Part shown: piece after piece, positions 44,134-48,885 of the stretch | How the letters are laid out: each line of letters starts with the position of its first letter | Position numbering within the stretch: position 1 is the first letter of the stretch | From: Pseudorhodobacter sp. | Lineage (GTDB): Bacteria > Pseudomonadota > Alphaproteobacteria > Rhodobacterales > Rhodobacteraceae | Assembly (NCBI GenBank): GCA_029254215.1 | Contig: JAQWYA010000033.1 | Coordinates: forward strand, 1 to 61,265 | Direction of reading: 5' to 3' | DNA: 61,265 bases | Made by a program: the position numbers and the translations under genes | Notes under the pieces: model-generated | What the model was told of the DNA's origin: nothing | What the model saw: the letters and a program-made list of their open reading frames with translations, nothing else | Databases searched by the model: none

Positions 44134-44152
44134 TCGTCAGCCTATCGTGCCC

Positions 44153-46054
44153 TTAGCCGATGATCGCATTGTCATCGCGCTTGATCGCGACGATGGCAGA
44201 GCGGGCAAGCTTGCCTTCCCCATCCGGGAAGGGCGCCGCCGGGTGCTGGATGCCCACAAACATCGTCCGCTTGTCGGCCGACCATGTGATCCCGGTGACT
44301 TCAGAGCCGACCGGCGCGGTCAGGAACCGTTCAATCCGTCCGGTTACGGGGTCGCCTGCCAGCATCTGGTTGTTGCCCATCCCGGCAAAATCGCCCTCGT
44401 TGCTGTCTTCACCATCGGTCTGGATCCAGACGAGGCCCGTGCTGTCGAACATCATCCCGTCGGGCGAGTTGAACATGTTGCCTTCGTTGATATTGCCCGA
44501 TCCGGCATAGGCATCTTTATGGACCACCGGGTTGCCAGCCATCACATACAGATCCCAGTCGAAATCGACGGCGGCATGGTCGTCATTCTCGGGATACCAG
44601 CGCACGATCTGGCCATAGTTGTTCTCGGCGCGCGGGTTCGGGCCGCCAACCGGGGTCTCATCCCCCCCGGCATTCGGCTTGACGCCGCGACGCGAGTTGT
44701 TGGTCAGGCAGCAATAGCCCTCAACCGCAACCGGGTTCACGGCCACCCATTCCGGGCGGTCCATCGTTGTCGCCCCGACCTTGGAGGCCGCAATCCGGGT
44801 GTGAATGCAGATTTCCGCCTGTGTCATCCCCGTCAACTCTGGCGTCAGGGCCAGCCATTCGCCTTTGCCATCCTCAGTGAAGCGGGCAACGAACAGGTTG
44901 CCATCATCCAGCAGGGTCGAGGTATCGCCACCCGGCACATAAATCCCGTTGGAGACATATTTGTACAGGAACTCGCCCCGCTCATCATCGCCCATGTAAA
45001 CGACGACACGACCATCGCGGGCGATGACACAGGCGGCGTTCTCATGCTTGATGCGGCCAAGGGCGGTGCGCTTGACCGGGGTGGCGCTGGCGTCCGAGGG
45101 GTCGATCTCCACGACATAGCCCGCGCGGTTCGGCTCATTCGGGTTTTGCGAGAAATCAAAGCGCGCGTCGAACTTCTCATAGGCATAGCGGGTTTCCGCG
45201 CCGATGCCGTAGCGCTTGAATTCGGGGCTGATCTCGATCTCGGCATTGGTGGAGCCGAAATAGCCGTTAAAATTCTCTTCGCAGGTCAGGTAGGTGCCCC
45301 AGGGGGTCTTGCCCGCACCGCAGTTGTTGAAGGTGCCAAGGCTTTCGGTCCCGGCCGGGTCGGCGGCGGTTTTCAGAAGGTCATGACCCGCAGCCGGGCC
45401 CGAGATTTTCATCGGGGTCAGATGGGTGATCCGGCGGTTAAAGGGGCTGTCAACGACAGGTGCCCAGCCATCCGGGCCTTCGGCCACTTCGAATACCGCA
45501 ACGCCCTGAAGGTTTTGCAGCTTGCGCACGTCTTCAAGCGAGGCCGGAACGCCGTCAGCGGTATGGGGCAGGTTGATTTCGGGGTTCACATATTCATGGT
45601 TGACCGCGATCACCTGATGGCTGCCGATGGTAAACATCTCCATCCCGTCGGTGTTTTCACCGAATACCCGGTCAGCGCTGGCCGCATCGCCGCCCGTGGC
45701 ATGATCAAACGCGACCGCATCCGAAAACAGCTTGTCGCCCCAGCGCACCAGAATGTCCCAGGAATAGCCTTCGGGCACATGGACCGTGGCATCCGTTGCG
45801 ATTCCGATCGGCTTGAAGGCAAAGCGGGTGGCGGCAGCCTGCGCCTGTGCAGAAGTGGAGGAAAGCATCGTGCCCATCCCCATCGCGGCCGCGCCCGACC
45901 CAAAGGCCAGAAGGCCCGACAGGAAGCCCCGGCGCGAGATCGCAGCCTCGACCACCTGATCGAAGCCTTGGGTCGCAGGGCGCGGGTCGCGCAATTCATC
46001 AAATTCGTCGAACGAAAGGTGACGCGTGTCGATATCTTTCATCATCTTCTCCAT
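44153..46054 (-). CDS. PhoX-family alkaline phosphatase (DUF839), Tat signal
   Basis: ISRRGFLSGLLAFGSGAAAMGMG; NNCGAGKTPWGTYLTCEENFNGYF; MVFVGIQHPAAPFPDGEG. Confidence 0.92.
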   Translation of the reverse strand: MEKMMKDIDTRHLSFDEFDELRDPRPATQGFDQVVEAAISRRGFLSGLLAFGSGAAAMGMGTMLSSTSAQAQAAATRFAFKPIGIATDATVHVPEGYSWDILVRWGDKLFSDAVAFDHATGGDAASADRVFGENTDGMEMFTIGSHQVIAVNHEYVNPEINLPHTADGVPASLEDVRKLQNLQGVAVFEVAEGPDGWAPVVDSPFNRRITHLTPMKISGPAAGHDLLKTAADPAGTESLGTFNNCGAGKTPWGTYLTCEENFNGYFGSTNAEIEISPEFKRYGIGAETRYAYEKFDARFDFSQNPNEPNRAGYVVEIDPSDASATPVKRTALGRIKHENAACVIARDGRVVVYMGDDERGEFLYKYVSNGIYVPGGDTSTLLDDGNLFVARFTEDGKGEWLALTPELTGMTQAEICIHTRIAASKVGATTMDRPEWVAVNPVAVEGYCCLTNNSRRGVKPNAGGDETPVGGPNPRAENNYGQIVRWYPENDDHAAVDFDWDLYVMAGNPVVHKDAYAGSGNINEGNMFNSPDGMMFDSTGLVWIQTDGEDSNEGDFAGMGNNQMLAGDPVTGRIERFLTAPVGSEVTGITWSADKRTMFVGIQHPAAPFPDGEGKLARSAIVAIKRDDNAIIG

Positions 46055-46322
46055 ACCAGCGGATTGCGTGGCCCGGACAGGTTTGCCCCCGGCCTTGACG
46101 CCGTTTACCGCCGTTGGGTGACAGTTCGACAAAGGGTTTATAGGAGTTTCGTAACAACCCGCCGCCCCTGCAAGGCTCAAATTTCGCGGTTCTTTCGGAT
46201 AAATCGCACCAGTCGCAACTTTCGGAAAGGTTTTTTTCACCCTGCGACACTTTATTCCGCCTTTTGGCGGTTGACGCGGGTTTTCACCCGCCATAAGGTC
46301 GCCCGGCTTCTAGGGGAAAATC

Positions 46323-46370
46323 ATGACCGATCTCGTCGTCATTGTGGAAAGAAGGCGCAGGGGCCGGTAA
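46323..46370 (+). CDS. Candidate leader peptide MTDLVVIVERRRRGR upstream of ilvI
   Basis: ATG...TAA 16 codons with Leu-Val-Val-Ile-Val run, followed by a terminator-like hairpin and then ilvI. Confidence 0.65.
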   Translation: MTDLVVIVERRRRGR

Positions 46371-46395
46371 CGGAAATCCAGACGGATACCCTTGC

Positions 46396-46424
46396 GCCCC
46401 CGATTAACCCCCGGGGGCTTTTTG
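46396..46424 (+). terminator. Attenuator-type terminator hairpin in the ilvI leader
   Basis: gcccccg-attaacccc-cgggggc-ttttt. Confidence 0.65.
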
Positions 46425-46487
46425 TTGCGAAAACGGCCGTCTCTGCGGCACCAATGCCGAAGGTTCGGCGCTTGAGGATGAAAGACG

Positions 46488-48242
46488 ATGACCAGATCAA
46501 TGACCGGAGCCAGAATGGTGGTTGAAGCCTTGCGCGAACAGGGCGTTGACGTTGTTTTCGGATATCCGGGCGGGGCCGTCCTGCCGATTTACGATGAAAT
46601 CTTCCAACAGAACGATATCCGCCACATTCTGGTGCGGCACGAACAGGGTGCAGTGCATATGGCCGAGGGCTATGCGCGCTCGACCGGTAAGCCGGGCGTT
46701 GTGCTGGTGACTTCTGGCCCTGGCGCGACCAATGCAGTAACCGGACTGACCGATGCGCTGATGGACAGCATTCCGCTGGTGGTTCTGACCGGGCAGGTGC
46801 CGACCTTCATGATCGGGACAGACGGGTTCCAAGAAGCCGATACCGTTGGCATCACCCGCCCCTGCACCAAGCATAACTGGCTGGTCAAGGATACCGACAA
46901 ACTGTCCGAGGTGATCCATCAGGCGTTTCATGTCGCCACCAAGGGCCGCCCCGGCCCGGTGCTGATCGACATTCCGAAGGATGTGCAATTCGCAACCGGC
47001 GAATACACCCCCATGCCGAAAGCCAAGGTGACCCATTACCAGCCGCGCGTGAAGGGCGATATGGAAGCCATCACCCGCATGGTTGAGATGATGGAAACCG
47101 CCGAGCGGCCGCTGTTTTACACCGGCGGCGGGGTCATCAACTCTGGCCCGGCGGCAAGCCAGTTGTTGCGCGAATTCGTGGCGGCGACCGGGTTCCCGAT
47201 CACCTCGACCCTGATGGGTCTGGGCGCTTACCCTGCCAGCGGAGAGAACTGGCTTGGCATGCTGGGGATGCACGGGCTTTACGAGGCGAACCTTGCCATG
47301 CATGGCTGCGACCTGATGCTGAACATCGGGGCGCGGTTTGACGACCGGATCACTGGGCGGATTGCCGATTTCAGCCCGAACAGCCGCAAAGTGCATGTCG
47401 ATATCGACGCCTCCAGCCTGAACAAGGTGATCCGGGCGGATGTGCCGATCCTGGGCGACGTGGGCCATGTGCTGGAAGATGCGCTGCGCCTGTGGAAAGC
47501 GCGTGGGCGCAAGTTGAACAAGGCCGGGTTGGCGAAATGGTGGAAGCAGATCAATGAATGGCGGGCCGTGAAATGCCTGACCTACAAGAACTCTGCCACC
47601 GTCATCAAACCGCAATATGCGCTGGAGCGGCTGGAAGCCCTGACCAAGGGGATGGACCGCTATATCACCACCGAAGTCGGCCAGCATCAGATGTGGGCGG
47701 CGCAATTCCTGGGCTTCGAGGACCCGAACCGCTGGATGACAAGCGGTGGTCTGGGGACGATGGGCTATGGGCTTCCGGCCTCGATCGGGGTGCAGGTGGC
47801 GCATCCCGAGGCGCTGGTGATAAACGTGGCGGGAGAGGCCTCTTGGCTGATGAACATGCAGGAAATGGGCACGGCGATGCAGTTCCGCGCACCGGTCAAG
47901 CAGTTCATCCTCAACAATGAGCGGTTGGGCATGGTGCGCCAGTGGCAAGAATTGCTGCATGGCGAGCGCTATTCGCAAAGCTGGTCGGAAAGCCTGCCCG
48001 ATTTCGTGAAACTGGCGGAGGCTTTTGGTTGCAAGGGTATCCAGTGTAAGGACCCGAAGGATCTGGACGATGCGATCATGGAGATGATCAAATATGATGG
48101 TCCGGTGATTTTTGACTGCCTCGTGGAAAAGCACGAAAACTGCTTCCCGATGATCCCGAGCGGCAAGCCGCATAACGAGATGCTTCTGGGAGAAGCGGAT
48201 ACGAAAGGGGCGATCGGATCCAAGGGAGCCGTTCTGGTCTGA
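46488..48242 (+). CDS. ilvI: Acetolactate synthase large subunit
   Basis: MTRSMTGARMVVEALREQGVDVVFGYPGGAVLPIYDEIF; ThDP motif region near VINVAGEASWLMNMQEM. Confidence 0.96.
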   Translation: MTRSMTGARMVVEALREQGVDVVFGYPGGAVLPIYDEIFQQNDIRHILVRHEQGAVHMAEGYARSTGKPGVVLVTSGPGATNAVTGLTDALMDSIPLVVLTGQVPTFMIGTDGFQEADTVGITRPCTKHNWLVKDTDKLSEVIHQAFHVATKGRPGPVLIDIPKDVQFATGEYTPMPKAKVTHYQPRVKGDMEAITRMVEMMETAERPLFYTGGGVINSGPAASQLLREFVAATGFPITSTLMGLGAYPASGENWLGMLGMHGLYEANLAMHGCDLMLNIGARFDDRITGRIADFSPNSRKVHVDIDASSLNKVIRADVPILGDVGHVLEDALRLWKARGRKLNKAGLAKWWKQINEWRAVKCLTYKNSATVIKPQYALERLEALTKGMDRYITTEVGQHQMWAAQFLGFEDPNRWMTSGGLGTMGYGLPASIGVQVAHPEALVINVAGEASWLMNMQEMGTAMQFRAPVKQFILNNERLGMVRQWQELLHGERYSQSWSESLPDFVKLAEAFGCKGIQCKDPKDLDDAIMEMIKYDGPVIFDCLVEKHENCFPMIPSGKPHNEMLLGEADTKGAIGSKGAVLV

Positions 48243-48324: not shown

Positions 48325-48885
48325 ATGTCGCCGCTCAATATACAATCCGGCTCGACGAGCCATTCTGCCTATGATCTTCGCGACCCCCATGCCGAGGTGA
48401 TCGAACAGCATACGCTGGCGGTCGTGGTCGATAACGAAAGCGGCGTGCTGGCGCGGGTGATCGGGCTTTTCTCGGGTCGGGGCTATAATATCGAAAGCCT
48501 TACTGTCGCTGAGGTTGATCATGAGGGGCATCGCAGCCGCATCACGATCGTGACGCGGGGCACGCCCCAGGTGATCGTGCAGATCAAGGCGCAGTTGTTC
48601 CGGATGGTTCCGGTGCATGAGGTTCATGACCTGACCGTAGACGGGCCTTCGGTGCAGCGCGAGCTTGCCTTGTTCAAGGTGGCCGGCAAGGGTGACCATC
48701 GGATCGAGGCTTTGCGGCTGGCGGAGATCTTTCGGGCGAATGTGGTCGACAGTACGTTGGAGAGCTTTGTCTTCGAGATGACCGGAACGCCGGAAAAGAT
48801 TGATGCTTTTGCCGAACTCATGCGGCCTTTGGGGCTGCGCGAGATTGCGCGGACCGGGGTTGCGGCGCTGTCACGCGGGGCGTGA
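48325..48885 (+). CDS. ilvN: Acetolactate synthase small subunit
   Basis: HTLAVVVDNESGVLARVIGLFSGRGYNIESLTVAEVDHEGHRSRITIVTRG. Confidence 0.96.
   Translation: MSPLNIQSGSTSHSAYDLRDPHAEVIEQHTLAVVVDNESGVLARVIGLFSGRGYNIESLTVAEVDHEGHRSRITIVTRGTPQVIVQIKAQLFRMVPVHEVHDLTVDGPSVQRELALFKVAGKGDHRIEALRLAEIFRANVVDSTLESFVFEMTGTPEKIDAFAELMRPLGLREIARTGVAALSRGA

Follow-up and report, generated by a model that had tools for sequence, protein, structure and literature searches.

The acetolactate synthase locus and its leader

The window analysed here, a stretch of 61,265 nt from a Pseudorhodobacter sp. contig, carries on its forward strand the genes ilvI (46488..48242; NCBIfam NF006581, 1139 bits, above the cut-off) and ilvN (48325..48885; NCBIfam NF008864, 219 bits, above the cut-off), encoding the large and small subunits, respectively, of acetolactate synthase. 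Direct reading of the sequence between 46200 and 46500 revealed a short ORF on the same strand upstream of ilvI (46323..46370), with an ATG at 46323 and a stop codon at 46368-46370. It encodes the leader peptide MTDLVVIVERRRRGR and is preceded by a ribosome-binding site recognised by its sequence, AGGGGA (46312..46317, forward strand). Codons 4-8 (46332..46346, forward strand) are CTC GTC GTC ATT GTG and specify Leu, Val, Val, Ile and Val. The initial annotation had drawn attention to this 15-codon ORF with consecutive branched-chain amino acid (BCAA) codons, and its presence was borne out, with orthologues of 14-16 aa at 77 of 80 related loci. Chance rarely yields such an arrangement: among 1000 dinucleotide shuffles of the 300 nt preceding ilvI, 2 contained a short ORF with five out of five Ile, Leu or Val codons, as did 1 of 408 blocks of 300 nt from the window.

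A probable sigma-70 type promoter (46271..46299, forward strand), consisting of TTGACG (46271-46276), a spacer of 17 nt and TAAGGT (46294-46299), lies further upstream. The element TTGAC occurs within a narrow range of distances upstream of the leader in all 78 aligned sequences, against an expectation of 0.10 per 120 nt of flanking DNA. This position places the probable transcription start before the leader ORF; from the promoter sequence it is expected near 46306. A strict sigma-70 consensus scan of the region did not list this promoter, as only 8 of its 12 positions match.

A mechanically called ORF of 792 aa (44147-46525, forward strand) runs antisense to a gene at 44153-46294 (reverse strand) and crosses the leader in another frame; we take it as an artefact. 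The reverse-strand gene itself bears a twin-arginine-like SRRGFL motif. At the gathering score, Rfam reported only tRNAs in the window, and at 698-752 on the forward strand a partial match to a tRNA only just exceeded its cut-off (30.2 bits, cut-off 29).

RNA hairpins upstream of ilvI

The transcript between the control codons and ilvI has two main hairpins. The first, a candidate antiterminator, is formed by a left arm within leader codons 11-14 (GGCGCAGGGG, 46354..46363) and a right arm (CCCTTGCGCC, 46389..46398), both on the forward strand, which make 10 pairs; the 45-nt fold has an energy of -25.5 kcal/mol (z = -4.0), equalled by none of 200 shuffles. The pairing of these segments had been proposed before with a left segment ending at 46362, one base short of its actual extent. 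Two small hairpins on the same strand accompany this helix: CCG-GUAA-CGG (46364..46373), whose GNRA tetraloop holds the leader stop codon, and, in the antiterminator loop of the window fold, AUCC-agac-GGAU (46376..46387), which is not conserved in sequence and only weakly in shape.

The second main hairpin is an intrinsic terminator (46396..46423, forward strand) with the arms GCCCCCG (46396-46402) and CGGGGGC (46412-46418), a loop of 9 nt and a TTTTT run (46419-46423). As described in the initial annotation, this hairpin with its five T ends 64 nt upstream of the ilvI ATG at 46488, and both sequence and fold (-15.5 kcal/mol, z = -2.6) confirmed it. A simple terminator pattern scan, limited to loops of 8 nt, passed over this hairpin on account of its longer loop.

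The last three bases of the right arm are the first three of the terminator. The overlap between the right arm and the left arm of the terminator that had been noted earlier is thus real, but it comprises only the 3 nt GCC (46396-46398). Likewise, the proposal that the two structures are mutually exclusive goes too far in its strict form: according to folding, both hairpins can coexist once the outer three pairs of the upstream hairpin open, and in 76 of the 78 sequences the combination of terminator and shortened hairpin is more stable in equilibrium energy than the full hairpin with the residual terminator. The cost of the conflict can be read from the last three terminator pairs of the window, the closing of which gains -9.9 kcal/mol without the upstream hairpin and -1.5 kcal/mol with it. 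When the left arm was blocked in the fold computation, the terminator was the sole remaining structure. A protector (1:2) stem was not found when the left arm was paired with the 5′ part of the leader, since the pairing energy of -9.6 was close to that against shuffled sequence (-9.3); in the same comparison, the left arm paired with the right arm at -19.0 kcal/mol.

Conservation in the Rhodobacteraceae

For the comparison among relatives we used 80 ilvI loci that were chosen by protein similarity alone, the leader not being considered. Upstream of ilvI, 77 of them have the ORF, both paired arms and the terminator at constant spacing, with a leader peptide of the pattern M-x-x-[ILV]5-x4-RMGR followed by the stop codon. 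At a further locus (L063) the copy is cut by the contig end, and both arms and the terminator are visible; the element is absent at the remaining two (L009 and L080). At these loci, from a Rhodobacter MAG and from Paracoccus marcusii, the attenuator has been lost, and the 5′ leader of ilvI is short and plain. One genome (G312) has two ilvI copies with a separate leader for each (L100, L140).

A covariance model found the element in 130 of 150 Rhodobacteraceae genera but in just 10 of the 289 genomes drawn from the Alphaproteobacteria as a whole, counts of sequences that do not equal counts of independent events as the sampled genome collections include close relatives. The model R1, which contains the window sequence, gave the window copy as its only convincing match in that genome; it yielded no convincing further copy there, for instance before leuA or ilvC (next best E = 0.12). 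Judging from these alignments, the ORF, the upstream hairpin and the terminator are conserved as a unit before ilvI throughout the Rhodobacteraceae. In the alignment of ilvI leaders across this family, which the initial annotation had suggested as a check, the short BCAA ORF is conserved and both hairpins contain pairs changed on both sides.

Selection on control codons and RNA pairing

At the five control positions, 363 of the 390 residues in the 78 sequences are Ile, Leu or Val, and Phe or Met occurs in only 2 of the 365 NTN codons there. The constraint is therefore on BCAA codons and not on hydrophobicity. Codon choice is also strongly biased: GTA makes up 58% of the leader Val codons compared with 3.7% in ilvI genes, and CTA 23% compared with 0.9%; these rare codons are strongly enriched at the control positions (leader codons -12 to -8 of alignment A1, L002-L081). 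The window leader is exceptional in having neither GTA nor CTA there. The last Ile, Leu or Val codon is separated from the left arm by 11 nt in 54 of the 78 sequences and by 14 nt in 11.

Selection on the pairing is most evident at the third base of codon -5 (column 36), which is G in all 78 sequences despite ten different codons at this place. This G has the C of column 81 as its partner; the pair is in conflict with the terminator, and the invariance of the G across ten codons indicates selection on this very pair. The tail of the leader peptide is usually RMGR and nearly invariant. The window has RRGR instead because pair 41-76 changed on both sides, from U-A to G-U, for which it is the sole case in A1: the codon change ATG to AGG is matched by CAT to CTT, and a G-U pair is kept. 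In L146 the tail changed from RMGR to RMAP with a C-G pair kept. The idea that the pairing segment dictates the Arg-rich tail thus gained support, as tail and pairing change together in these two leaders and the codon -5 G is fixed; from the aligned leaders, the constraint on the tail is one that acts on the RNA and not on the peptide.

In a wider alignment, 6 of 13 pairs changed on both sides. Such cells numbered 13, whereas shuffles gave 3.2 and slid controls 1 to 8; the alignment had been fitted to the structure, however, and is biased towards it. Covariation is thin in the core helix because this helix hardly varies. The terminator helix is paired in 100% of cells among the 78 sequences, with changes on both sides at three of its seven pairs, and the stop-codon hairpin in 96%, its first pair being changed on both sides in five sequences. 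The leader stops are TAA (53), TGA (23) and TAG (2); a UAG stop, found in only 2 of the 78 sequences, breaks the GNRA tetraloop of CCG-GUAA-CGG.

Related leaders in Rfam RF02502 and upstream of efflux pumps

The window leader matches Rfam family RF02502 (Atu_C8) from end to end with 25.3 bits. This family comes from the Rhizobiales, is typed as sRNA and has a curated gathering score of 50 bits, below which the window and three further leaders (L056, L002 and L021, with 24-31 bits) remain. The RF02502 consensus, as we read it, encodes MIILVVGPRMGRAV followed by a stop codon, then a GCGCAUGGG...CCCAUGCGC hairpin and a terminator. It shares with the ilvI leader this hairpin, a terminator and the location of members before ilvI. 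It differs in having a longer stop-codon hairpin and, in the Rhizobiales, a terminator of another sequence that is set apart from the right arm. The Rhodobacteraceae leader and RF02502 have a common layout and are very likely homologous, even though the leader is not a member by Rfam's rule.

Matches to RF02502 above the cut-off lie before ilvI in G584, in two copies encoding MKIATALIVVGKRMGRMV and MKIAMVLAVVIGRMGRMV, and in G631, and blastn detected relatives before acetolactate synthase genes on pSymB of Sinorhizobium meliloti (encoding MKNFAVILVVGRRMGRMV) and in Shinella. Further leaders of the RF02502 type precede a Bcr/CflA-type MFS transporter, in G107 and five relatives, Rhizobium gallicum, Phyllobacterium and R. 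etli; the R. etli record annotates the downstream gene as a Bcr/CflA drug-resistance protein, and we assigned the pump family by TIGR00710, above its cut-off. All Atu_C8 cases checked (L189-L194, L082, L134-L138, L195 and L196) are situated before either ilvI or a Bcr/CflA MFS gene. Leaders ahead of pump genes were also detected independently by R1, both in several further families and in a small number of Rhodobacteraceae (L128-L133, L141, L145, L150 and L153), with valine-dominated codons as in MNPKSVVVVVSRRCMVR and MITVVVVVMRERRVDR. In seven of these (L128-L131, L141, L150 and L153) the Val-dominated leader, the hairpin and the terminator lie 20-60 nt upstream of a Bcr/CflA-like transporter gene; the other three (L132, L133 and L145) are weaker and have few BCAA codons. 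In the window's genome, the Bcr/CflA-like MFS gene (L174, 44% identity) lacks a Val-rich leader, as do most of the other homologues in the Rhodobacteraceae; the pump version is therefore sporadic. A literature search for Atu_C8, sRNA C8 or CflA with leader peptides returned nothing relevant.

From this layout we infer that Atu_C8 corresponds to an attenuator leader ended at its terminator. More broadly, we lean towards the view that a single ancient alphaproteobacterial leader family, characterized by BCAA codons, an RMG tail, the GCGCAUGGG hairpin and a terminator, controls genes of two unrelated kinds, acetolactate synthase and a Bcr/CflA-type pump whose leaders are dominated by valine codons, that a shortage of valyl-tRNA or slow ribosomes in the leader would induce the pump, that Atu_C8 would be the terminated transcript of the pump leader, and that the ilvI switch would operate via competition for just the closing pairs of its terminator. 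If so, inhibitors of BCAA synthesis or of translation, for instance, should induce the pump, which suggests a drug-efflux pump with an amino-acid or translation sensor in common with the ilvI leader. A re-annotation of the RF02502 "sRNA" family as a leader attenuator is also suggested.

Proposed mechanism and alternative explanations

We consider it highly probable that the element is a ribosome-mediated transcription attenuator of ilvI-ilvN, a reading already put forward in the initial annotation and supported by the conserved unit before ilvI. A short ORF with BCAA codons lies directly before a biosynthetic gene, with an intrinsic terminator between them; a protector (1:2) stem as in trp, which is not obligatory for all attenuators, is absent. 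The assignment is based on these parts, their conservation, the compensated pairs and the energies, and from them we infer the ribosome positions, the order of folding, termination and the response to starvation: the leader very probably turns ilvI-ilvN on when Leu, Val or Ile run short.

RNA polymerase would start about 20 nt upstream of the leader ORF. With Leu-, Val- and Ile-tRNAs charged, the ribosome would reach the stop codon and cover 46354-46363 as well as the stop-codon hairpin; with the left arm covered, the upstream hairpin would not form, the terminator would close and transcription would end near 46423. If one of these tRNAs were short, the ribosome would stall in codons 4-8 and, with the leading edge of a ribosome about 12 nt past the first base of the A-site codon, leave the left arm mostly or wholly free. 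The 10-pair hairpin could then form before the terminator is made and would hold the GCC at 46396-46398 needed to close the terminator base, so that the polymerase would read into ilvI. Since coexistence of both hairpins is preferred at equilibrium, the switch must be kinetic and would be decided before equilibrium is reached, the hairpin competing for the closing pairs of the terminator. According to the general view, the transcript is dislodged as the base of the hairpin closes, and this competition may therefore be enough for switching. Given the lack of a protector stem, read-through would be expected, in contrast to trp, when the leader is not translated.

The same equilibrium energies also fit constitutive attenuation, in which the terminator fixes the expression level, the hairpin acts as a barrier or stabiliser and the ORF is a by-product. 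This would leave the conserved Ile, Leu and Val codons, the avoidance of Phe and Met, the spacing to the left arm and the invariant codon -5 G unexplained, and we regard it as improbable. Arrest of the ribosome by the nascent RMGR or Arg-rich tail would agree with the near invariance of RMGR, yet the tail varies where the pairing stays, as in the window (RRGR), L146 (RMAP) and the MFS leaders (RLDR, CMVR, CVVR), and the varying residues preserve the RNA arm and not the peptide; such an arrest is very improbable. Equally so is a metabolite-binding riboswitch, which a structured leader ahead of a biosynthetic gene might bring to mind, given that the window has no Rfam riboswitch match and no conserved unpaired pocket outside the coding part, and that conservation tracks the codons.

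An action in trans deserves somewhat more weight, though it is still unlikely as the function of the short transcript. The end-to-end match to RF02502 points in this direction, the terminated leader would be stable and capped by a hairpin, and rnTrpL of Sinorhizobium meliloti provides a precedent for an RNA that acts in cis and in trans (PMC10117765). All checked RF02502 matches above the cut-off, however, directly precede either ilvI or one MFS gene and have the same orientation as that gene, as expected of a cis element. A role in trans would at best, and with low probability, be an addition to the attenuator acting in cis on ilvI-ilvN.

Comparison with known attenuators

The attenuators of trp and ilvGMEDA in E. 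coli consist of control codons, an antiterminator, a terminator and a protector 1:2 stem. The ilvI leader resembles them in the first three of these parts and differs in having no detectable protector stem. In the E. coli systems a whole segment is shared by antiterminator and terminator, compared with only 3 nt here, and this unusually small overlap would offer a clean test of whether closing the last terminator pairs decides termination. Closer in phylogeny and function, ilvBN of Caulobacter crescentus is described as controlled by attenuation through a leader with Ile and Val codons (PMC4117421, citing Tarleton, Malakooti and Ely 1994). As far as that description goes, this ilvBN/ilvIH attenuator has in common with the ilvI leader a leader ORF with tandem Ile/Val codons, a terminator, the target enzyme and the bacterial class. 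An alphaproteobacterial ilvB leader peptide is attributed to Vitreschak et al. 2004 (cited in PMC1273637); it is, again by description, alike as a predicted BCAA attenuator before acetolactate synthase in Alphaproteobacteria. By these accounts, acetolactate synthase genes preceded by BCAA attenuators have been described in this class before, and the leader presented here represents a family-wide, sequence-defined candidate of this type for the Rhodobacteraceae, which current RNA libraries miss at their cut-offs.
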